Position numbers and translations under genes: made by a program. From IMG/VR virus record IMGVR_UViG_3300001533_001854, positions 1-31,125 of that record: DNA of 31,125 bases. One strand, given 5' to 3'. Below the pieces are notes generated by a model. It made no database searches and was not told the DNA's origin. It saw only the letters and a list, made by a program, of their open reading frames with translations. Positions 4,031 through 23,868 of the stretch are shown here, piece after piece; positions within the stretch are counted from its first letter, which is position 1; each line of letters opens with the position of its first letter. The stretch comes from a virus.

Positions 4031-6748
4031 ATGAGCCACAAAGAAAACCCCTCCTTATATACTGCAGAGGTAGTAGGGGCTCTAAAGGGCTTAGACCAAG
4101 GGATGAAAGAAGCAGCTAAAGCCTTGTCCGATGTAGGGCTGTGGCAGGGTAATCAAGAAAAATTCTTAGACATAGTAGAAAGGTCCCTGCAAGAGAGAAG
4201 GGCAGCAGATAGTGCTGCAATAACCTCCTATATTAATAACATACAAAGGTGGGCTAAGGTCTTCATCGAAAATGTATTTGCTTCTCAAAGAGTTTTTAAG
4301 GGGAACAACGATGCACTAAATAAGCTGTACTCGGTGGTCCATGATATACTATTAAGTAAGGGTGCCCTGCTTGATATGGTGGAAGAGGTAAGGTCTGCCT
4401 TAGAGAAAGAGAAAAAAGGGGTAGACATTGCGGATCCTGAAAGTAAAAAGAAGTATGATAAAAACAAATGGTTCGTAGATGAGGGGCTGGATAAGACTAC
4501 GGGCGCCGTCCGTGATAAAATCCAAAAGATACTATCAAAAAAGAATGACCCAGAAGACCGGTCTAAATACCTTAGTGCTGTGAAAGATTTAGAGGAAGAG
4601 ACTACTGTACCAGAGTGGCAAAGAATAAAAAGAGCATTAAAAAACAACGGGTTTAGCAGTACCGGGGAATTCTATCCTGAAATTTTTGAGAAAAAAGAAA
4701 GACAGATCGAGGGTCTAAAATTAGCCGCTGAAGATAGTATCATACCTTATACTAAAGATATGAGGGGGTTTATTGAGTCTTACAAGAAGGCTTTAAATCA
4801 CTACAAAGGGAACCCCAAAAAGAGGGATAGTGTAATAAACACTTTTCATCTTATTGTATTGGAGGGTGATAATAACCTATATAATGCTATAAAAAGTTTT
4901 TATGAAAGATTACCTTCAGTAGAGAGGGTGGACGCCACTCCTCAGAATTCTCCTGGGGAAAGGGGACAGGCAGACACTGCTCCCCAGATAGGAGAGGATC
5001 ATCTATCTCAGAGTCCTACTATGATAGCAGAAAGGACTTTAGAAAGAGGGGATAGGGATGCGGGGTCCGCTCTAATAGATGTGGTACTTAATGAAAATAT
5101 GGTTACTGGTGAAAAGCTAAGAGATAAGGTATCTCGGGTGGGGGAGAGAATAAAAGGTAAGTATCTTATTCCAGAAGGGGACATAGACAGCAAGACTTTA
5201 AGTATTGCCTATGTATTTAAGGGTTCACCTATGGTGAAGATGCTGAATTCTTTAGTGTCTCTATTATCTGACCCAAAGAGATCCGAAGAGGATATACTCA
5301 AGGTATTTGAGGCCGAGGGTAAAAGATTAGCACCTGTAATTACTTCTGTGAAAAAGAAAGTAGATGTTTTAAGAGAAGAGAGAAGGCAAAGGAAAGAGCA
5401 GGAGAAGGCGGAAAAGACTAAGGCTACCCCTACTAAGGTGACTCCAGGGACAGATGATACAGCAAAGAGCCCTGATGATACAACAGAGAGCCTTGGTGAG
5501 AAAACTACACGGGGTAAGAAGAAAGCACCTCCTTTTGTAAAACAGGATAAGGAAGAGAGGGCTGTCCCCAAAAAAAGAAAAAGTAAGGCACCATATAAGA
5601 AGGTACCTAAGAATGTAAAGGATGAGGAGGTCATCCCTTTCCTTGATGCGGTAAAGAAAAAAACACCTAAAGGAGAGAAGGTACCTGAAGAGACGGTACC
5701 CTCGATAGAAGGTGTGAAGAAGCGTGTAGAGACGGAGGTTAAAACTAAAGTACAGGATACTATAAAGGTGGAGGACTCGGTCTCCGATCTAGAGAAGGAT
5801 GTTAACAGGGCTTTACGTGAATTAGCCACAAGGCCACCGAAGAACGTAGTCACTTATCTGGAGGAGTCCATAGAGGAGGTCGGTAAGGTACTTAGTAGAG
5901 AGGTAAAGGATCCTCAAACTAGGAGGGCTACGTTAGGGTATCTAAAGGGTCTTCTTACTAAAACGGAGAGATTCTTAGATAAACCGGAGTCCCGGCAACA
6001 TCGAGGGAAGGTAGAAGAATTATTAGAATCCTTTAAAGAAAGTTTGGCTGATGTACAAGGTTCTTTTGCTGAGGAGAAAGAGGCATTAATAGATACACTG
6101 GAAAGCTTTCAAAGACTTCCTGGGACCTCCCTGATGACGGGAGAGGACGTGGGGGACGGTCTTATGGGCATAGTTAAAGAGACCTTGTATACATCAGAGA
6201 ATCCTTTAAAGGAGGAAACTGAGGCTTTAGAGAATGATACCAAAGAGATAAAGGATGAAGGGACCCCTCCTACCCAAGAGGAGGCCCCTACCCAAGAGGA
6301 GGCTCCCGCAGAGAAGGAAGAGCCCGTAGATGATAAGGTGGAGGAACCTGCGTCCCCGCAAAAGGGACAGAAACCTGAGGGGACACCTGGTAAGACATAT
6401 CCTCAATATGTAAGAGGCAAGTCTTCTACTTTACCTTTATATGAATTGGAAACAGCGTTATCTCGCATAATGTCACAGGTGGAGGGACCTGCGGTAGAGA
6501 AGCAGACGAGCATAGTAGAGGGGCTTGATGACTGGGTAGTTGAGAATTCCCAGGATTTTACAGATGCTAAGGAATTAGAGAGTTTCCTACCTTATAGGGA
6601 AGTTGAGGCTCTTATAGGTTACTTGAAGAATAAACGGGCTAAGATCTCTACCGTGGATAGGCAAGCCAAAAAAGTACTAGATGCGCTAAAGAAAGCGGCA
6701 GAAAGTAAAGAACTTATCTATTCGAGCGAGAAAACCCCTTCCCTTTAG
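4031..6748 (+). CDS. Large charged coiled-coil protein, probable virion or internal head protein
   Basis: A 905-residue protein dominated by Lys, Glu and Asp, with long predicted helices. An N-terminal helical part (1-300) contains SYINNIQRWAKVFIENVF; a Pro/Thr/Lys/Glu-rich linker covers about 450-570 and another about 740-800 (tandem TQEEAP). The helical C-terminal domain starts near 810 (LPLYELETALSRIMSQVEGP). I recognise no enzyme domain. Size and position among head-associated genes suggest an internal virion or scaffold-like protein. The ATG at 4031 has only a weak ribosome site (GAG at 4022-4024). The same frame is open upstream from 3983, inside the preceding gene, so a fusion by frameshift cannot be excluded. 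The last codons lie inside a palindrome of the IS605-like element, so the native C-terminus may have been altered. Confidence 0.72.
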   Translation: MSHKENPSLYTAEVVGALKGLDQGMKEAAKALSDVGLWQGNQEKFLDIVERSLQERRAADSAAITSYINNIQRWAKVFIENVFASQRVFKGNNDALNKLYSVVHDILLSKGALLDMVEEVRSALEKEKKGVDIADPESKKKYDKNKWFVDEGLDKTTGAVRDKIQKILSKKNDPEDRSKYLSAVKDLEEETTVPEWQRIKRALKNNGFSSTGEFYPEIFEKKERQIEGLKLAAEDSIIPYTKDMRGFIESYKKALNHYKGNPKKRDSVINTFHLIVLEGDNNLYNAIKSFYERLPSVERVDATPQNSPGERGQADTAPQIGEDHLSQSPTMIAERTLERGDRDAGSALIDVVLNENMVTGEKLRDKVSRVGERIKGKYLIPEGDIDSKTLSIAYVFKGSPMVKMLNSLVSLLSDPKRSEEDILKVFEAEGKRLAPVITSVKKKVDVLREERRQRKEQEKAEKTKATPTKVTPGTDDTAKSPDDTTESLGEKTTRGKKKAPPFVKQDKEERAVPKKRKSKAPYKKVPKNVKDEEVIPFLDAVKKKTPKGEKVPEETVPSIEGVKKRVETEVKTKVQDTIKVEDSVSDLEKDVNRALRELATRPPKNVVTYLEESIEEVGKVLSREVKDPQTRRATLGYLKGLLTKTERFLDKPESRQHRGKVEELLESFKESLADVQGSFAEEKEALIDTLESFQRLPGTSLMTGEDVGDGLMGIVKETLYTSENPLKEETEALENDTKEIKDEGTPPTQEEAPTQEEAPAEKEEPVDDKVEEPASPQKGQKPEGTPGKTYPQYVRGKSSTLPLYELETALSRIMSQVEGPAVEKQTSIVEGLDDWVVENSQDFTDAKELESFLPYREVEALIGYLKNKRAKISTVDRQAKKVLDALKKAAESKELIYSSEKTPSL

Positions 6749-6756
6749 GGGAGGGG
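6735..6756 (+). repeat. TTTA-loop palindrome, possible left boundary of an IS200/IS605-like element
   Basis: CCCCTTCCC at 6735-6743 pairs with GGGGAGGGG at 6748-6756 (nine pairs, one G-T) around a TTTA loop. It overlaps the stop codon of the 905-residue gene. No T-run follows. Short GC-rich stems with a TTTA loop are typical of the sub-terminal palindromes recognised by IS200/IS605 transposases, and a second one lies 185 bases downstream. Confidence 0.5.
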
Positions 6757-6970
6757 ATGAGAGCGGAAATAAATTAGAACGAAATAGTTGGTATTAAAAT
6801 TGAATGAATGTATATTTGAGTTAAGTCAGTCAATAAGACTCTAAAACCTCGGCGAGTACACTGATGGAGTGGGTGTAAGACCAATATGGGCAGTGCTTTT
6901 GCCTAACCCATAAAGGCGACTGCGGTGAAGTCAGAAGTTCCGACCCTTTAGGGTCGTGGGTAGTTCACTG
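6757..6970 (+). ncRNA. IS200/IS605 right-end / TnpB omega-RNA-like element, no tnpB present
   Basis: No convincing reading frame crosses this stretch. From about 6845 it can fold like the right end and guide-RNA scaffold of IS605-type elements: TATGGG (6885-6890) pairs with CCCATA (6907-6912); the loop GCCT (6901-6904) can pair with AGGC (6914-6917) as a pseudoknot; GACT (6918-6921) pairs with AGTC (6929-6932). The terminal hairpin is CGACCC-TTTA-GGGTCG (6941-6956), followed by GTGGGTAGTTCAC (6957-6969), which resembles the usual right-end sequence of these elements. In active systems the guide is the flanking sequence after the right end, here starting around TGAAAACTAG. No TnpB or TnpA is encoded in the window. 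It may be a remnant, a small non-autonomous element bounded by 6735-6756, or a retained RNA gene. The identification is from memory of the family, not from a search. Confidence 0.6.
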
Positions 6971-6994
6971 AAAACTAGAAAAGGACACAAAGAC

Positions 6995-7660
6995 ATGAAA
7001 GATGCAGTAGGTATTTTTAATGGTATTTTTAGAGGTGATAGGGCGGTAAAGACATCTTCCGTACCAGCGGTTATGCTACCTGAGGTAGAGGCAACTAAAG
7101 CAGACCTTATTGAGGGGTTGCAAGGTGATCTCATTTTGGAGTATACGGCGGCACTGCAGTATTACCAACATTACGCCGTTATGCGGGGTGCTTCCTATGA
7201 TAATATCCGTCAGCATTTGAAAGAGCATGCTGAGGAGGAGATAGAACACTCAGTCATTATTGCAGATCGTATAGCACAGTTGGGCGGTGTACCTGATGTT
7301 TCTTTAAGGGATATCAAGAAAAGTCCTAAATCCTCTGAAATGCTTTTACAAGATTTGGAGGATGAACACACGGCGGTTGCCCGTTATAAAGAAAGAATCG
7401 TACAGGCCATGGCATTAGGCGAGTACGGGTTGGCTGACGAGCTTATGGACATACTTCAAGATGAGGAGGAGCATGTCCAAGACCTTGAAACAAGTACGGG
7501 GGATCCCGATAGAGAACCAGGGAAGACATTAGAGGATCTCAGAGAGAATAAACCCGAGATGGCTGGAGTGGATGATTCTGGGGATTACCTAGCGCAGTTA
7601 GCAAAGACGCGAGAGTTGCGAAAAGAGAAAATTCTAGAAAGATTAGCAACTTTGCAATAA
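6995..7660 (+). CDS. Ferritin-like di-iron protein
   Basis: A 221-residue protein with a four-helix ferritin/bacterioferritin-like bundle at about residues 30-165. The metal-ligand pattern is visible: E49 in LILEYTAALQYYQ (helix A), E82-x-x-H85 in AEEEIEHS (helix B), E122/E124 in LEDEHTAV (helix C) and E157-x-x-H160 in LQDEEEHV (helix D). It should bind two irons and could oxidise or store iron or remove peroxide. A charged C-terminal tail of about 55 residues (ending in RELRKEKILERLATLQ) is added to the domain and may dock it to a partner. A GTG at 6956 extends the frame, but it lies inside the preceding RNA hairpin; the ATG at 6995 with AAGGA at 6981-6985 is a better start. Placement among virion genes suggests a structural or packaged protein; this is inference. 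Confidence 0.85.
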   Translation: MKDAVGIFNGIFRGDRAVKTSSVPAVMLPEVEATKADLIEGLQGDLILEYTAALQYYQHYAVMRGASYDNIRQHLKEHAEEEIEHSVIIADRIAQLGGVPDVSLRDIKKSPKSSEMLLQDLEDEHTAVARYKERIVQAMALGEYGLADELMDILQDEEEHVQDLETSTGDPDREPGKTLEDLRENKPEMAGVDDSGDYLAQLAKTRELRKEKILERLATLQ

Positions 7661-9124: not shown

Positions 9125-10441
9125 ATGTACATGAGTAATAAGATTTCAAAGAGTACAGCATATAGGGTGGCATCTAGATACCTAGGTTTTAATAAGGAAG
9201 AGGATAATCTCCCTTGGTTAGATTATCTTAGAAAGAAAAACACTCCGGTAGAAGAAGCTCCTAACCAAAACACTGTTAGGGAACTCTCTAAGACCGTGGT
9301 AGATGTGAATCCGGCAAATGCCGATGGGCAGCTAGGTAAGAGCCTTTTGGACGGGGTACAGGATGGCCGAAGTACCTCTAGGGTGCAGGATTACCAACCC
9401 GCAAATGAAAACGACAACTTAGGACCAGGTAGGGGAGATTTATTCCCAGCAGGGTTCACAAAACCTGACAGAAGTGAAATGCCTGATAATTCTATGTGGA
9501 TGTACTGGCTAAATAGACACCGGCAGGATGATGCAACGGGTACACCTTGGGGATCAAATTTATATGGCCCTTTTAACACCATAGAAGCGTCTCAGGGTAA
9601 GCATCTAAAAACCGCAAAAACTATCAAAGAAGTGATGGACTCAAGTACACATGAAAGAACAAGAGACATATTGGAAAGTGCTAAGGGTTTATCTGTAAGA
9701 GATATCTCCAGGAAGGGTGAGAAAGACGTAGGTAGATATGTATTGAAAGTAACTGGGGGGTCGGATGCCCAGGAGGTTACTCTCCAATTTTTAAAGGCAA
9801 AGGGTAAAGACTCCTTAGCAGAACACCCTTGCTTGATAGCTTGTACTTGTGAAGATTTTTTATGGGGAGGCCCCCAGTTTTATGCCGTGAAGGGTAAGTA
9901 CATGTACATGCCGAAATTTCGACCCCAGCTGATGGAGCCTAGGAGTAAGGATAATGGGGGGAGAGGTAAGGGTTTAACAGCCTGTAAGCATATAGCGGCA
10001 GTGTCAGCTAATTTATCTGATTTTCTTCCTACTGATGAATCCTACACAGAGGATATCCAGAGTAAACTGCTAAGTGTGAAGGATGATGCTTTTAAAGATT
10101 TGTCCACGTTACCTAAAGAGGAGATTACGGAGGAGTACCAATTAGATAGAAAGACGGATTTTGTGCAGTTCTTAGAAGATGAACGGCTACATAGTGAGGT
10201 ACTTGCTCAGGGTAGAAAAAGCTTAAAAGAAAAAGGTGTAAGCGAATATGCCTTGTATGACTATGTACAGGGAACCTTTTCAGAAATGAGAAAAGGAGTC
10301 CAGGAAAAGATTTTGGAAAGATTGGAGGATAGCCCTAGTACGATAGTGTTAATCCTTGTTGAGTACAAAAAAGCTTTTGGGAAGATACCTAGATATCTCT
10401 CAGATGCAGCTTACGAAATTATAAAAGATAAGATATCATAA
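9125..10441 (+). CDS. SWIM-type zinc-finger protein
   Basis: A 438-residue protein with a SWIM-like zinc-binding pattern: C240-x-C242 in IACTCEDFLW and C287-x-H289 in ACKHIAAV, about 45 residues apart. The wide insert contains KYMYMPKFRPQ. SWIM domains bind nucleic acid or protein; this long-insert form occurs in phage proteins of unknown role. The N-terminus (SNKISKSTAYRVASRYL) is a short amphipathic helix, followed by a Pro/Asn-rich linker (40-120) containing WMYWLNRH. The C-terminal 130 residues are helical. There are two ATG codons at 9125 and 9131; neither has a strong ribosome site (AGAAAAG at 9117-9123 favours 9131). Start choice is therefore uncertain by two residues. It is followed 13 bases later by a zinc-ribbon gene, so the two may work together. 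Confidence 0.72.
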   Translation: MYMSNKISKSTAYRVASRYLGFNKEEDNLPWLDYLRKKNTPVEEAPNQNTVRELSKTVVDVNPANADGQLGKSLLDGVQDGRSTSRVQDYQPANENDNLGPGRGDLFPAGFTKPDRSEMPDNSMWMYWLNRHRQDDATGTPWGSNLYGPFNTIEASQGKHLKTAKTIKEVMDSSTHERTRDILESAKGLSVRDISRKGEKDVGRYVLKVTGGSDAQEVTLQFLKAKGKDSLAEHPCLIACTCEDFLWGGPQFYAVKGKYMYMPKFRPQLMEPRSKDNGGRGKGLTACKHIAAVSANLSDFLPTDESYTEDIQSKLLSVKDDAFKDLSTLPKEEITEEYQLDRKTDFVQFLEDERLHSEVLAQGRKSLKEKGVSEYALYDYVQGTFSEMRKGVQEKILERLEDSPSTIVLILVEYKKAFGKIPRYLSDAAYEIIKDKIS

Positions 10442-10454
10442 AGAGGAGAAAAAT

Positions 10455-10886
10455 ATGCCTGTCTACACGTATAAGTGTTCCTGTGGGGAAATGAGGGACG
10501 TCGCACATAAATTAGGAGAAAAACCCGAGGTGCTATGTGATAAGTGCGGGGAACCCATGAATAGGTATGCTACGGGGGGTTCTGGTTCCTATATAAAAGG
10601 GCCTACTGCTAGTAAATACTATATGGAAGAAAGAAGGCTGCGCAAGAAAAGGGCGCAGATGTCTGTAACTCAATTAGAAAGGTACGGTAATAAGGGTCTT
10701 ATACCCAATATCAATGGGGAAGAGATAGGTTCTTGGAAAGACGCCAAGATGATAGCCCAGGATAAGGGGGAGGACACAAGCAAGTTTAATAAGTATCTTA
10801 AAAAGGAGTCTCGGTCAAATAACTCTGCTGGTATAGACGAGGTTCGTTTAAGGAAGTTAAAAGAAAAAGCAAAGAACATTATTTAA
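10455..10886 (+). CDS. FmdB-like zinc-ribbon protein
   Basis: A 143-residue protein that starts with a zinc ribbon of the FmdB/putative regulatory type: MPVYTYKCSCGEMRD, then VLCDKCGEPMNR, with CxC and CxxC pairs within the first 40 residues. The rest is a basic, helical tail (RRLRKKRAQ, KLKEKAKNII) that could contact nucleic acid. An AGAGGAGA ribosome site lies 5-7 bases before ATG. It follows the SWIM protein by 13 bases, so is surely co-transcribed. Zinc ribbons of this family occur in phage genomes near structural genes, mostly without known function. Confidence 0.78.
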   Translation: MPVYTYKCSCGEMRDVAHKLGEKPEVLCDKCGEPMNRYATGGSGSYIKGPTASKYYMEERRLRKKRAQMSVTQLERYGNKGLIPNINGEEIGSWKDAKMIAQDKGEDTSKFNKYLKKESRSNNSAGIDEVRLRKLKEKAKNII

Positions 10887-12616: not shown

Positions 12617-13144
12617 GGGTATAGCCTTTTGGGTACAGTTACTTAAGAGGTGTTTTTGTGAAAACGTTAAATATAAAGCATAAAGGTAAAATACTTCAGA
12701 TACCTGTTGTAAATACCCTGCAGAGGGATGGTCTTTCTGCGGAAGAGGGTTATGTCGTTTTACACAAAAGCGATTTAGGAGACCCCACGGGGGTACTCGA
12801 ATACTTTGATGGACAATCTTGGGTACAAGGGGCTATACAGGGGTATACAGGTGCTCCCCCCTCTGGAGGGATAACTGGTCCTGCGGGTCCTACCGGCATA
12901 CAGGGTGAAATGGGTATACAGGGTGAAACGGGTCTTCAAGGTGGAACGGGTCTTCAAGGTGAGACGGGTTTACCTGGTTCCCAGGGTGAGATGGGCGCTC
13001 AAGGCGAAACAGGTGTACAAGGTGAAACGGGCGCCCCAGGTATACAAGGGGTTACAGGTCCTCAGGGGTTAGCTGCAGATGTTATGCGCTTTCTTGGGGC
13101 GATAACCCAAGATTCTGATTTCCCTAGTGAGGTGTCAAGGTTAA

Positions 13145-16363
<3,219 letters not shown>

Positions 16364-19692: not shown

Positions 19693-19861
19693 GTCTAATA
19701 AAAATAGAAAAATAGTTTGGTCTTTGAGAGTCTCTCCTGAAACAAAGGAGTGGTTTGAAAACTACTCCGCAGAGAGATTAACAGACCCCGCGGAAGAGGC
19801 GAGGGCTGCTCTTGCTAATTTCATAGAACATAAAAAACAAGAGATGGGGAGAATGAAGTGA
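19691..19861 (+). CDS. Small ribbon-helix-helix-like DNA-binding protein
   Basis: An ORF of 56 residues starts at ATG 19691: MSNKNRKIVWSLRVSPETKE. The short strand KIVWSLRV, a helix starting at SPETKEWFENYSAERL, a turn (TDPAEE) and a second helix (ARAALANFIEHKKQ) match the ribbon-helix-helix (Arc/MetJ/CopG) fold in length and pattern. Such proteins bind palindromic operators as dimers, inserting the strand into the major groove, and often repress their own promoter. The palindrome at 19669-19692 lies at its start. The stop overlaps the GTG of the glycosyltransferase gene (GTGA), so both are on one message and the glycosyltransferase would be under the same control. It lacks a clear ribosome site: the palindrome occupies that place. 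Confidence 0.68.
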   Translation: MSNKNRKIVWSLRVSPETKEWFENYSAERLTDPAEEARAALANFIEHKKQEMGRMK

Positions 19862-22800
19862 AAAAGAAGAAAGATGTATTACTGTCCTTGTGCATTATCG
19901 TAGGGGAAAAAGAGCAGGTAGAATTGGAAAGATGCCTGAAAAGTGTACAAGGAGATGTCTTCGATGAGATCATAGTAACATTAACACAAGAAGACCCCGA
20001 GGTAAAGAAAGTGGCAAAGAAATATGCCACGAAGACTCCATTTTTTAAATGGATAGATGACTTCTCAGCAGCTAGAAATTATTGTTATGATCAAGCCTCC
20101 GGTAAATATATCATGTGGTTAGATGCCGATGATGAAATCACCCCTGAATCCTACCGAAAGCTACGAGAGCTAAAACGTCTCGTATTAACCGAGGGTAAAG
20201 TACAATATATCTTAATGAATTACAATTACGCATGGAACGGGAACACGCCTATCCTAACGCTACCTCGTGAGAGAATCACATTAAATAGTAAATGGTACAG
20301 ATGGCAAGACCCTATCCATGAATATATCTTAACGTACTCTGATGTACCTCATCTAAATAGGACGGACATCAGTGTAGAACACAGAAGAGTAAAAACTACT
20401 CATACAGACAGAAACTTAAAGCTATTAGAGAAGCTGTATAAAAGTGGCAAGGCATCACCCCGAAATGTGTTTTACTATGTGAAAGATTTATTCGATTCGG
20501 GGGACAGAGAAAAGTCTATCCCTATACTGAAGGATTATTTAAACGGCCAGCAAGACTACTACCAAAACAGGGTACAGGGCTATTTAAGACTAGCTAGGTA
20601 CCTAAAAGAGAAACAAGACCTAGTGGCGGCAAAAGAAACACTTCTGAAAGCCTTAACGGTTAGCACGGAATACGCAGAAGTTTATGTCCAATTGGCTAAT
20701 ATCGAGATAGAGCTAAGTAAAGACAAGAAGAAGGCTATACCCTACCTAGAGAAAGCTCTTGCAAAAGACCCAAAAGGTCTCTTTGCTGCAGATCCTTCTT
20801 ACTACGACAAGAAACCTCTAGAAGCACTAATGTTTATTTATGACGAATTAGGTAACCCCGAGAAGGCACTATTCTACGCAGAAGGGTACTTGGAAATATG
20901 CCCACAAAGCGCTACCTATGCTAATAATGTTATTTATTTAAAGAACAAGATAAATAAAATGAAGGAGGTACCTAAAGGGCGTACCGGGCATTTATCCAAT
21001 TATAGAGTGGGTTGGTTTGAGGAAAATATCATTCCAGAGAACCCCTCGCAAAGAATAAGACGTTTAAATGTTTTGTTGGAAATGAAGAAAAGAGGGTACT
21101 CTGCTGGGATACATAGTAACTATCATAGAGTAGCTCTAGATAAAATAGTAGCAAAAGCTAAAAGTGAATTAGATGTGGCTATTTTTAGTTCCTACAGCTT
21201 CCTGGATATGGAATTGGTTAAGGCCCTGCAGAAAGAGGGTGTAACTGTTCTTTTTGACTTTAACGAGGGTGTTATAGGTATCACTAATGTAGAAAAGATG
21301 CTCCCCCTAGTAGACGGGGTAGTATGCTGCTCCAAAGAGCTTGCTAATATGGCGAGACCATACGCAAAAAATATTGCTGTCATAGAGGATGCCTATGAAC
21401 CACTGGAAGGCGACGCATACGATTACTTCCAAAAACAGGACAGGCTGAAGGCACTCTACATAGGCATGGGAGGTAATTCCTACCTGGCTACGGAGTATTT
21501 AAAGGAAGCTATAGAAAAGGCGGGGTATGAATTAGATGTTTGTACTGAGTGGGAAAATGCTACTACACCTTGGAGCTTAGAGGGGTGGCAAGACGTGATG
21601 AAAGATGCACACGTGGTATTATGTCCTCAGAGGATAAAGGAACAGCCCGCAAAATCCAATATCAAGGCAGCACAGGCCATGGCCTTCGGTATACCAGTCA
21701 TAGCCTCAAGTCTTCCCTCCTACTTAGAATTCATAAAACATAAACAAAATGGCTATCTATGCAATAATCCAGAGGAATGGTATGAGGCCTTACTAGAGTT
21801 AAAAGATTTACCTAAGAGGGTACAAATAGGTATGAACGGTAAGGATAGCGTAAAAGATAGATACTCTATCGAGGCTATCACGGATAAATGGGGGGTAGTA
21901 CTATCTTCGTGGGAGACACAGAAAGACATCCAACGGGCTACTAATAAACCTCCCAAAGAAGAGTCTCCTGTACCAATAGTGATACCTGTATATAATGAGG
22001 TACATTACTTAAAGGAATGTGTAGAGAGCATTAGAAGAAACACGGCGTATCCTTACCACATAATACTATCAGACGCAGGGTCAGACGAGGAGACCTGGAA
22101 GTATCTAGAGTCTTTAGAGGGTGTCACAGTTTTAGGTAAAAGGGGGGAGAGGAAGAATTTCTCCCAAGCGGTAAATACAGGCGTGGCTAGCCTAGGCGCT
22201 GGGAAGTACTTCGTAACACTTAACTCAGATGTGATAGTTTCTAAGGGGTGGTTACGTAACTTAGTAGAAAAGATGGGTAGAGAAGACAGACTAGCCGCGT
22301 GTGGTGTATTATCCAACTGTGACAGAGGTTGGTTACACGGTACTAAGAACACGCCGAATTACCCTATGTATTTAAAGAAAGCGAAGCTAGAGCTTGTTCC
22401 CGTTATGACCCTGGATCAAATAGCAAATAATATGGACGAATTAGATGAGTTTATGGAGGGATCGAACGGGGCACTTTATGGGCAGTTTAAGGAGCAGCCG
22501 TGGGTTGCCTATTATGCCACAATCTTTGCCCGTTCTGCGTGGGACGAGGTAGGGGATCTTGACCCCTCATTTAAGAATGGGTGTGAGGATTTAGATCATT
22601 GCCGGCGATTAACTAGTATGCATTATAGGATCGGGCAGGCCATGGACTCTTTTGTTTTTCATTTTGGGGGCGTAAGTAGAGGTGCCTACCAAAGAGAGGG
22701 TAAAGAGGAGTATGATAAGGAAGACAATTATAATCATTGGTTCTATCAAGAAAAGTGGAAAAAACCTAGAGTAGCTATCTATACCGGCCCAGCTTGGGAG

Positions 22801-23868
22801 AAGTGGGGGCGAGAGACTGTGGATCAAGGTATGGCTGGGTCAGAAACATGGGCGGCAGAACTTGCTGCGGAATTTAGCAGGCTGGGCTTGGATACATATG
22901 TTTTTAACGACTGCATACATGAGGAAAAAGATAGGGATGGTGTATCCTACATGCACTACGGTAAATATTTTGAGTGGTCTAAATATCTACATGTGGACTT
23001 TCTCATTATGTCAAGAACCTGTGAATTATATAAGCTGGGTAAACTGCACGCCGGTAGGGTAGATGTTATGGTGCATGATATCTGGTTATCTCAGGACAAG
23101 GGCTATGACACAAAGAAATGGGCTGTTAAGAAATTTGGAGTACTCAGTGAATGGCATAGGGAGTTCTTTACTAGGCACCATGATATAACTCCAGAAAAAA
23201 CATTTCTAACAGCAAACGGAGTAAGGCAGGAGCTTTATGAGGATGTACAGGTACTTGAGAAGAAGAACATGGCTGTCTATAGTTCATCACCGGATAGAGG
23301 GTTGCTGCAGTTATTAAATATGTTACCCCATATCAGGGAGGAAGTACCGGAATTCGAGTTAGTAGTAGCGTACGGTTTTGAGAACTGGGAGAAGGCTGCA
23401 AAGGCACGTAACAGTGAAAAAGAGATGTCCCTTATAAATAAAATAAAAGAGGCTTTAAAACAACCAGGGGTGAAATACGTCGGTAGGGTATCAAAGAAGC
23501 AACTATCTGAATACCAAAAAATGTCTAAGATATGGGCATACCCTACGTGGTTCACCGAGACCTTCTGTATTTCTGCCGTAGAGGCTGGTCTAGCTAAAAA
23601 TGCTATCATCACAACACCCCTCGGAGGAATCCTAACAACAGTAGGGGAGGCGGGTTCTTATATAGCGGGACCAGATACCGTACACCCCACCCAATGGTCA
23701 TTTACAGAAGATTACCAAAAAAGGTTCCTTTCTGAAGTTATAAAAATGCTAAAGGATGAACCCTACCGGTGGTACTGGGCGGAGAAAGCCTACAAGAAAG
23801 TCTCTGCATACTCTTGGGAGGTTATTGCGCGGGACTGGTTAGTGGAATGGGGGATGCTAGAATCATAA
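19858..23868 (+). CDS. Four-domain glycosyltransferase (GT2-TPR-GT4-GT2-GT4)
   Basis: A 1336-residue protein. Order: GT2 domain (about 1-190) with the metal-binding L88-D-A-D-D92; TPR-like helices (about 205-365, LARYLKEKQDLVAAKETLLK); a GT4-like domain (about 385-690, AAQAMAFGIPVIASSLPSYL) in which the usual E(x7)E pair is not clear; a second GT2 domain (about 700-960, PIVIPVYNEVHYLKECVESI, acidic TLNSDV near 789, CEDLDHC near 908); and a second GT4 domain (about 970-1336) with TETFCISAVEAG, where E(x7)E is intact. It should transfer sugars from nucleotide-sugar donors to an acceptor, acting in the cytoplasm: no signal peptide or membrane segment is seen. TPR domains often present protein substrates. 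Its place after the fibre genes suggests that virion fibres are the acceptor; this is inferred. GTG start, coupled to the RHH gene; AGATGGGGAG upstream serves as ribosome site. Confidence 0.88.
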   Translation: MKKKKDVLLSLCIIVGEKEQVELERCLKSVQGDVFDEIIVTLTQEDPEVKKVAKKYATKTPFFKWIDDFSAARNYCYDQASGKYIMWLDADDEITPESYRKLRELKRLVLTEGKVQYILMNYNYAWNGNTPILTLPRERITLNSKWYRWQDPIHEYILTYSDVPHLNRTDISVEHRRVKTTHTDRNLKLLEKLYKSGKASPRNVFYYVKDLFDSGDREKSIPILKDYLNGQQDYYQNRVQGYLRLARYLKEKQDLVAAKETLLKALTVSTEYAEVYVQLANIEIELSKDKKKAIPYLEKALAKDPKGLFAADPSYYDKKPLEALMFIYDELGNPEKALFYAEGYLEICPQSATYANNVIYLKNKINKMKEVPKGRTGHLSNYRVGWFEENIIPENPSQRIRRLNVLLEMKKRGYSAGIHSNYHRVALDKIVAKAKSELDVAIFSSYSFLDMELVKALQKEGVTVLFDFNEGVIGITNVEKMLPLVDGVVCCSKELANMARPYAKNIAVIEDAYEPLEGDAYDYFQKQDRLKALYIGMGGNSYLATEYLKEAIEKAGYELDVCTEWENATTPWSLEGWQDVMKDAHVVLCPQRIKEQPAKSNIKAAQAMAFGIPVIASSLPSYLEFIKHKQNGYLCNNPEEWYEALLELKDLPKRVQIGMNGKDSVKDRYSIEAITDKWGVVLSSWETQKDIQRATNKPPKEESPVPIVIPVYNEVHYLKECVESIRRNTAYPYHIILSDAGSDEETWKYLESLEGVTVLGKRGERKNFSQAVNTGVASLGAGKYFVTLNSDVIVSKGWLRNLVEKMGREDRLAACGVLSNCDRGWLHGTKNTPNYPMYLKKAKLELVPVMTLDQIANNMDELDEFMEGSNGALYGQFKEQPWVAYYATIFARSAWDEVGDLDPSFKNGCEDLDHCRRLTSMHYRIGQAMDSFVFHFGGVSRGAYQREGKEEYDKEDNYNHWFYQEKWKKPRVAIYTGPAWEKWGRETVDQGMAGSETWAAELAAEFSRLGLDTYVFNDCIHEEKDRDGVSYMHYGKYFEWSKYLHVDFLIMSRTCELYKLGKLHAGRVDVMVHDIWLSQDKGYDTKKWAVKKFGVLSEWHREFFTRHHDITPEKTFLTANGVRQELYEDVQVLEKKNMAVYSSSPDRGLLQLLNMLPHIREEVPEFELVVAYGFENWEKAAKARNSEKEMSLINKIKEALKQPGVKYVGRVSKKQLSEYQKMSKIWAYPTWFTETFCISAVEAGLAKNAIITTPLGGILTTVGEAGSYIAGPDTVHPTQWSFTEDYQKRFLSEVIKMLKDEPYRWYWAEKAYKKVSAYSWEVIARDWLVEWGMLES

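Follow-up and report, generated by a model that had tools for sequence, protein, structure and literature searches.

A 251-bp stretch at positions 6718 to 6968 (plus strand) of the 31,125-bp window, by which we mean the whole piece of viral DNA analyzed here, is very probably a PATE-like non-autonomous element of the IS200/IS605 family that carries an omega-RNA but neither tnpA nor tnpB. Its two ends, the left end (LE) and the right end (RE), were each recognized by an independent profile built from other elements, and the two matches, both on the plus strand, fall in the order expected inside 251 bp. Together with the target motif, reconstruction of the empty site, and the existence of tnpB-less relatives in other phages, these matches support the assignment. 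A sequence-only reading of this DNA had proposed a non-autonomous IS605-type element with an omega-RNA and a right-flank guide at 6735 to 6985. The same lines of evidence uphold that identity, while the LE and RE profiles move the boundaries to 6718 and 6968. The features on which that reading relied (a noncoding stretch, a TTTA-loop hairpin at 6939 to 6958, a GTAGTTCAC end at 6960 to 6968, and a further palindrome upstream at 6735 to 6756) are all present.

The LE (6718 to 6765, plus strand) has the form ...GAGCGAGAAAACC-hairpin-GGGATGAGAGCG. To search for it, we used a profile HMM built from 17 unique left ends of other phage loci, with the window excluded. This model gave one significant match in the window, which covers the model's full length and lies at 6714 to 6765 (E = 6e-6). 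The LE hairpin, CCCCTTCCC-TTTA-GGGGAGGGG (6735 to 6756, plus strand), has a folding energy of -17.9 kcal/mol (z = -2.7) and occupies the same position as in the relatives. It is the palindrome that had been described earlier as overlapping the upstream stop codon, which it does; as a second right end it was rejected, since it matches left ends in the LE HMM. The sequence GAGCGAGAAAACC (6724 to 6736) occurs once in the window, compared with 0.09 occurrences in shuffled sequences at up to one mismatch. Similar arrangements were found elsewhere: the LE of the complete element L044, read in the direction of tnpB, is TTTTATTAGACGGAGCGTAAAACCC-hairpin-GGGATGTAAGCG, and a pattern scan of viral contigs returned ten loci with GAGCGNNAAAACC-hairpin-GGNATGNNAGCG. 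At locus L051, this type of LE and an RE of the window's class flank one tnpB gene, indicating that the two ends belong to a single family.

Immediately before the LE is a target-site or TAM-like motif, CTTAT (6713 to 6717, plus strand). The unique left ends of the family are preceded by TTTAT, or in two cases by ATTAT, and direct reading of the sequence likewise placed TTTAT before the left ends of L038 and L042. The window therefore shares the TTAT core with its family and differs in the first base. The element is inserted 3' of a fixed short motif without target duplication, with C as an atypical first base.

The omega-RNA scaffold and RE occupy 6845 to 6968 (plus strand). They were matched at 46.6 bits (E = 9.3e-11) by a covariance model, R1, built from the right ends of nine other elements, most of which sit 3' of tnpB genes; the window was again excluded. 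In the 31-kb window, this was the only strong match (the runner-up had an E value of 1.3), and across 88 sources R1 recovered the RE at most TnpB loci in this clade. The match indicates that the scaffold is homologous to omega-RNAs adjoining tnpB genes, and the right-end similarity anticipated by the sequence-only reading is thereby confirmed with a model derived from other elements. R1 matches that lacked convincing ends, L081:276-369 among them, were left out of the tally of solo omega-RNAs, and L046 was excluded because its apparent right end falls inside a tnpB fragment. The motif noted earlier, GTGAAGTCAGAAG...TTTAG...GTAGTTCAC, led to phage loci where a tnpB gene terminates in the same sequence, such as L003, and looser right-end patterns added further tnpB-ending loci (L038 to L044, L057, and L058). 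Within the window, GTGAAGTCAGAAG (6925 to 6937) is found once, compared with 0.04 times in shuffled sequences at up to one mismatch.

The terminal hairpin of the RE (6939 to 6958, plus strand; core CGACCC-TTTA-GGGTCG) is individually stable (z = -2.3) and nearly identical to that of the L112 RE. It covaries across the family: among seven ungapped examples that differ from one another, 98% of cells are paired; seven of the nine pairs show changes on both sides, and the covariation score was matched by no shuffle. The right terminus GTAGTTCAC (6960 to 6968, plus strand) is invariant across the nine-sequence right-end alignment. L112, a complete element with both tnpA and tnpB, is the closest relative of the window RE, and its last ~28 bases are almost identical. 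The folding energy of the entire stretch is ordinary (z = 0.2 and -0.16). The 6-bp stem (TATGGG/CCCATA) and 4-bp pseudoknot (CAGT/ACTG) proposed earlier can be drawn, but this segment is not conserved in the relatives, and the family shows a different long-range helix, CTGAT/GTCAG. The first omega-RNA stem is shorter in the window (CTC-GGC-GAG) than the 8-bp stem of the relatives, and a hairpin at 6883 to 6912 is not shared with them, so the scaffold may be degenerate. An Rfam counterpart, to which the sequence-only reading had looked for confirmation, did not appear: gathering and permissive thresholds gave chance matches only, and no Rfam family covers the region. Among named phages and plasmids, the region had no blastn match, and a scan of 395 Bacteroidota genomes found the RE in one Taibaiella MAG only and the LE in none.

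The insertion separates an upstream open reading frame (ORF) of 905 amino acids (4031 to 6748, plus strand; no family match) from a ferritin-like gene (6995 to 7660, plus strand; PF00210, E = 3.7e-23) that starts with the ATG at 6995 and is encoded amid virion genes. The last codons of the upstream ORF have been replaced by the insertion. It now ends ...SKELIYSSEKTPSL*, with the codons after ELI having become YSSEKTPSL, and its present stop codon (6746 to 6748) sits in the LE hairpin. The gap between this ORF and the ferritin-like ATG is 246 nt, compared with 9 to 13 nt in several other gene pairs of the window. When the element is removed and the flanks are joined, the upstream frame closes as ...ESKELIEN*; its stop codon then precedes the ferritin-like ATG by 16 nt, and a ribosome-binding site, AAAGGA, falls between the two. 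The reconstructed empty junction is CTTAT/TGAAAACTAG, where the slash marks the join, and the flanks meet without duplication. That removal yields such a clean gene end supports both boundaries, 6718 and 6968. Searches of viral contigs with the ferritin-like gene, the major capsid protein (MCP), and pattern queries found no empty site in a relative. The ferritin-like gene retrieved no related phages, and no empty-site comparison was available because the MCP relatives reach only 60% identity and do not carry the flanking genes. The sole contig that matched a degenerate empty-site pattern, L150, was dismissed, its match being fortuitous and located within an ORF unrelated to the site.

Between the element ends, at 6766 to 6844, no TnpB-like coding sequence was found. 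A tblastn search of the 31-kb window with TnpA and TnpB gave nothing better than an E value of 0.35, in agreement with the earlier statement that neither gene is present, and no TnpB-like gene in the window could serve as an adjacent tldR (a nuclease-dead TnpB gene). What this interval does contain is a promoter-like site, TTGGTA-N17-TATATTTG (6788 to 6818, plus strand), which we predict to drive the omega-RNA. The pattern TTG-N(19-22)-TANNTTTG is the promoter type usual in Bacteroidota, and a scan of both strands found it once in the window, at this site. The same pattern precedes tnpB at 10 of 61 family loci, compared with 0.5 in shuffled sequences, although the motif was picked after the sequence had been seen and this enrichment is suggestive only; eight of the ten matches are no more than 16 nt from the tnpB start. 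A sigma-70 scan flags 6788 to 6818 as well, at chance level. This arrangement is suggestive of a core deletion that took tnpB and left the tnpB promoter in front of the omega-RNA. Most likely, an autonomous TnpB-bearing ancestor, from a clade common in large phages, shed its protein genes and kept the LE, the promoter-like stretch, and the RE with its omega-RNA.

The reRNA of ISDra2 is ~150 nt long, and its last ~16 nt derive from the right flank (PMC8612924). By this rule, the predicted 16-nt guide of the window element is TGAAAACTAGAAAAGG (6969 to 6984, plus strand), which runs into the leader of the next gene. The right flank had already been put forward as the guide, from about 6970; the flank stands, and the predicted start becomes 6969, directly after the RE terminus at 6968. 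The inferred RNA would be ~160 nt long, extending from ~6825 to the guide end at ~6984.

The window MCP matches PHROG 2522, and its best GenBank match (59% identity) is in LR745208.1, a 485-kb uncultured phage, with matches of lower identity in further phages of very large size, among them Bacillus phage G. The 31,125-bp window, an IMG/VR virus record, thus most likely represents part of the genome of a very large phage, and the absence of a gene from it says little about the phage as a whole. A search with PF07282, the TnpB zinc-ribbon family, gave six matches in LR745208.1, one of which is followed by an omega-RNA that matches R1 weakly (27.4 bits) and whose ends differ in detail; a partner TnpB within the same phage lineage is plausible. 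In that genome (loci L061 to L065), several TnpB-like ORFs were observed, including very similar ones of ~485 amino acids at different places and an adjacent pair, which suggests that TnpB-like ORFs have spread within it. TnpB genes were common in large phages among the loci surveyed, and complete tnpA- and tnpB-bearing elements of the family also occur in phages (L044 and L112).

Several other genes of the window were noted in passing. Overlapping collagen-like ORFs at 12658 to 13188 and 13145 to 16363 look like one gene split by a change of frame near 13145 to 13188, through a sequencing error or a programmed shift. A 1,336-amino-acid protein that combines several glycosyltransferase domains with TPR repeats (19858 to 23868) is encoded beside very long collagen-like fiber genes. 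In the 9125 to 10886 region, a small zinc-ribbon protein (10455 to 10886; weak PF09723 match below the cutoff) neighbors a 438-amino-acid ORF with a SWIM-like Cys/His pattern, recognized by eye, and no Pfam match.

In IS200/IS605 transposition, a single DNA strand is cut out and reinserted beside the target motif by TnpA, and TnpB with a right-end RNA has been proposed to cut the donor joint, with an intact copy then serving as the repair template from which the element is regained (PMC8612924). An element that encodes no protein but retains its LE, its RE, and an omega-RNA could be served in trans by TnpA and TnpB. TnpA supplied in trans would peel the element out as a single-stranded circle and paste it 3' of TTAT. 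Transcription from ~6825 would yield the ~160-nt RNA, whose 3' end would lie in the right flank (TGAAAACTAGAAAAGG...), and a related TnpB made in trans, by phage or host, would load this RNA and cut CTTAT-TGAAAACTAGAAAAGG. That sequence exists only in element-free DNA, namely, the donor joint or an uninserted sibling phage. The inserted copy would escape cutting because GTTCAC, rather than TTAT, precedes the target, and repair from it would restore or spread the element. If the partner nuclease is supplied from elsewhere, the RNA would thus direct it at copies of the virus that do not have the element. Whether the element is currently mobilized or maintained in trans by TnpA and TnpB is, in our estimate, evenly balanced.

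Only a little less probable than even is that the same element is now a dead remnant, immobile and functionless, drifting as an untranslated spacer. The shortened first stem, CTTAT in place of TTTAT, the lineage-specific insert in the scaffold, and the lack of tnpB in the 31-kb fragment are all consistent with decay, and degeneration is frequent among PATEs and IS605 elements that have lost their core (PMC3119063). Set against this, the element retains each of its hairpins and termini, the CTGAT/GTCAG helix, and the promoter-like site in intact form, and a complete gene end still results when the flanks are joined. These features point to an insertion that is either recent or maintained. A reading with no transposon at all, in which the stretch serves the ferritin-like gene as a structured leader or a regulatory RNA, takes its appeal from the position directly upstream of that gene, into whose leader the RNA would run. 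We consider it highly improbable, given that the ends match transposon ends from many phages (E = 6e-6 for the LE and 9e-11 for the RE), that Rfam yields no match, and that the flanks join cleanly without the stretch.

A further alternative is that the phage keeps the RNA as a domesticated guide, so that TnpB made elsewhere cuts uninserted rival phages at the virion-operon site. The abundance of TnpB genes in large phages and the six TnpB matches in LR745208.1 are compatible with such a role, and interference competition by a homing endonuclease is known from a jumbo phage (PMC11620839). Nothing observed here sets such a role apart from the ordinary self-maintenance of a transposon, and we regard this alternative as unlikely. 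Similarly doubtful is a role as an active, guide-only homing element in a megaphage, with TnpB from phage or host cutting uninserted siblings at the virion-operon junction; were this the case, such homing would give inserted phages an advantage during coinfection.

The non-autonomous element favored here is a fresh example of the known PATE-type class, and its RNA is, as judged by homology, of the TnpB omega-RNA class. Uncommon for the class are its very large phage host, its retained guide RNA, and its insertion at a virion-operon junction. Five other elements in IMG/VR phage contigs resemble it in being short (188 to 355 bp) and having both ends and no intact tnpB, although their insertion sites differ from that of the window element: L040 (276 bp), L050 (355 bp), L053 (334 bp), L055 (L055:711-898, 188 bp), and L086 (300 bp). 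L055, on a 121-kb viral contig, contains little beyond an LE and an omega-RNA and is the smallest found here; a further element, L042 (about 515 bp), is internally deleted. L050, L053, and L055 differ from the window element in having an RE of another subfamily, with a GCAGTCAC terminus. L050 and L053 share the 86-kb contig IMGVR_UViG_3300031707_002920 with L048, an autonomous LE-tnpB-RE copy with the same ends, and the three form a natural set for studying guide RNA use in trans. Large phages thus carry protein-free transposons that retain a guide RNA, sometimes beside a copy with the matching nuclease, as L048 is with L050 and L053, which raises the question of whether one TnpB maintains or spreads many guide-only elements in trans and serves the phage against its siblings.

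Among known systems, the phage IS605/IS1341 elements L038, L044, L058, and L112 (IMG/VR) share the end architecture and omega-RNA class of the window element, but they encode TnpB and, in L044 and L112, also TnpA, whereas the window element encodes neither. The PATEs of Haloquadratum walsbyi are transposase-free derivatives of IS605-type transposons with near-terminal IS605-type palindromes, and they share with the window element a short target oligonucleotide, the lack of terminal inverted repeats, and a deleted core (PMC3119063). The window element differs from them in its location (a large bacteriophage, not a haloarchaeon), in belonging to another end family, and in having a recognizable omega-RNA scaffold and a promoter-like site. 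The ISDra2 TnpB/reRNA system likewise combines an RE scaffold, a right-flank guide, and a target motif that is also the TAM, but there the motif is TTGAT, compared with (T/A/C)TTAT in the window family, and the window has no tnpB in cis (PMC8612924). The guide RNAs of phage TldR proteins are also phage borne and TnpB derived; TldR, however, is a phage-encoded protein that regulates a host gene, whereas the window element encodes no protein and its predicted guide is simply the flank (PMC13418256).
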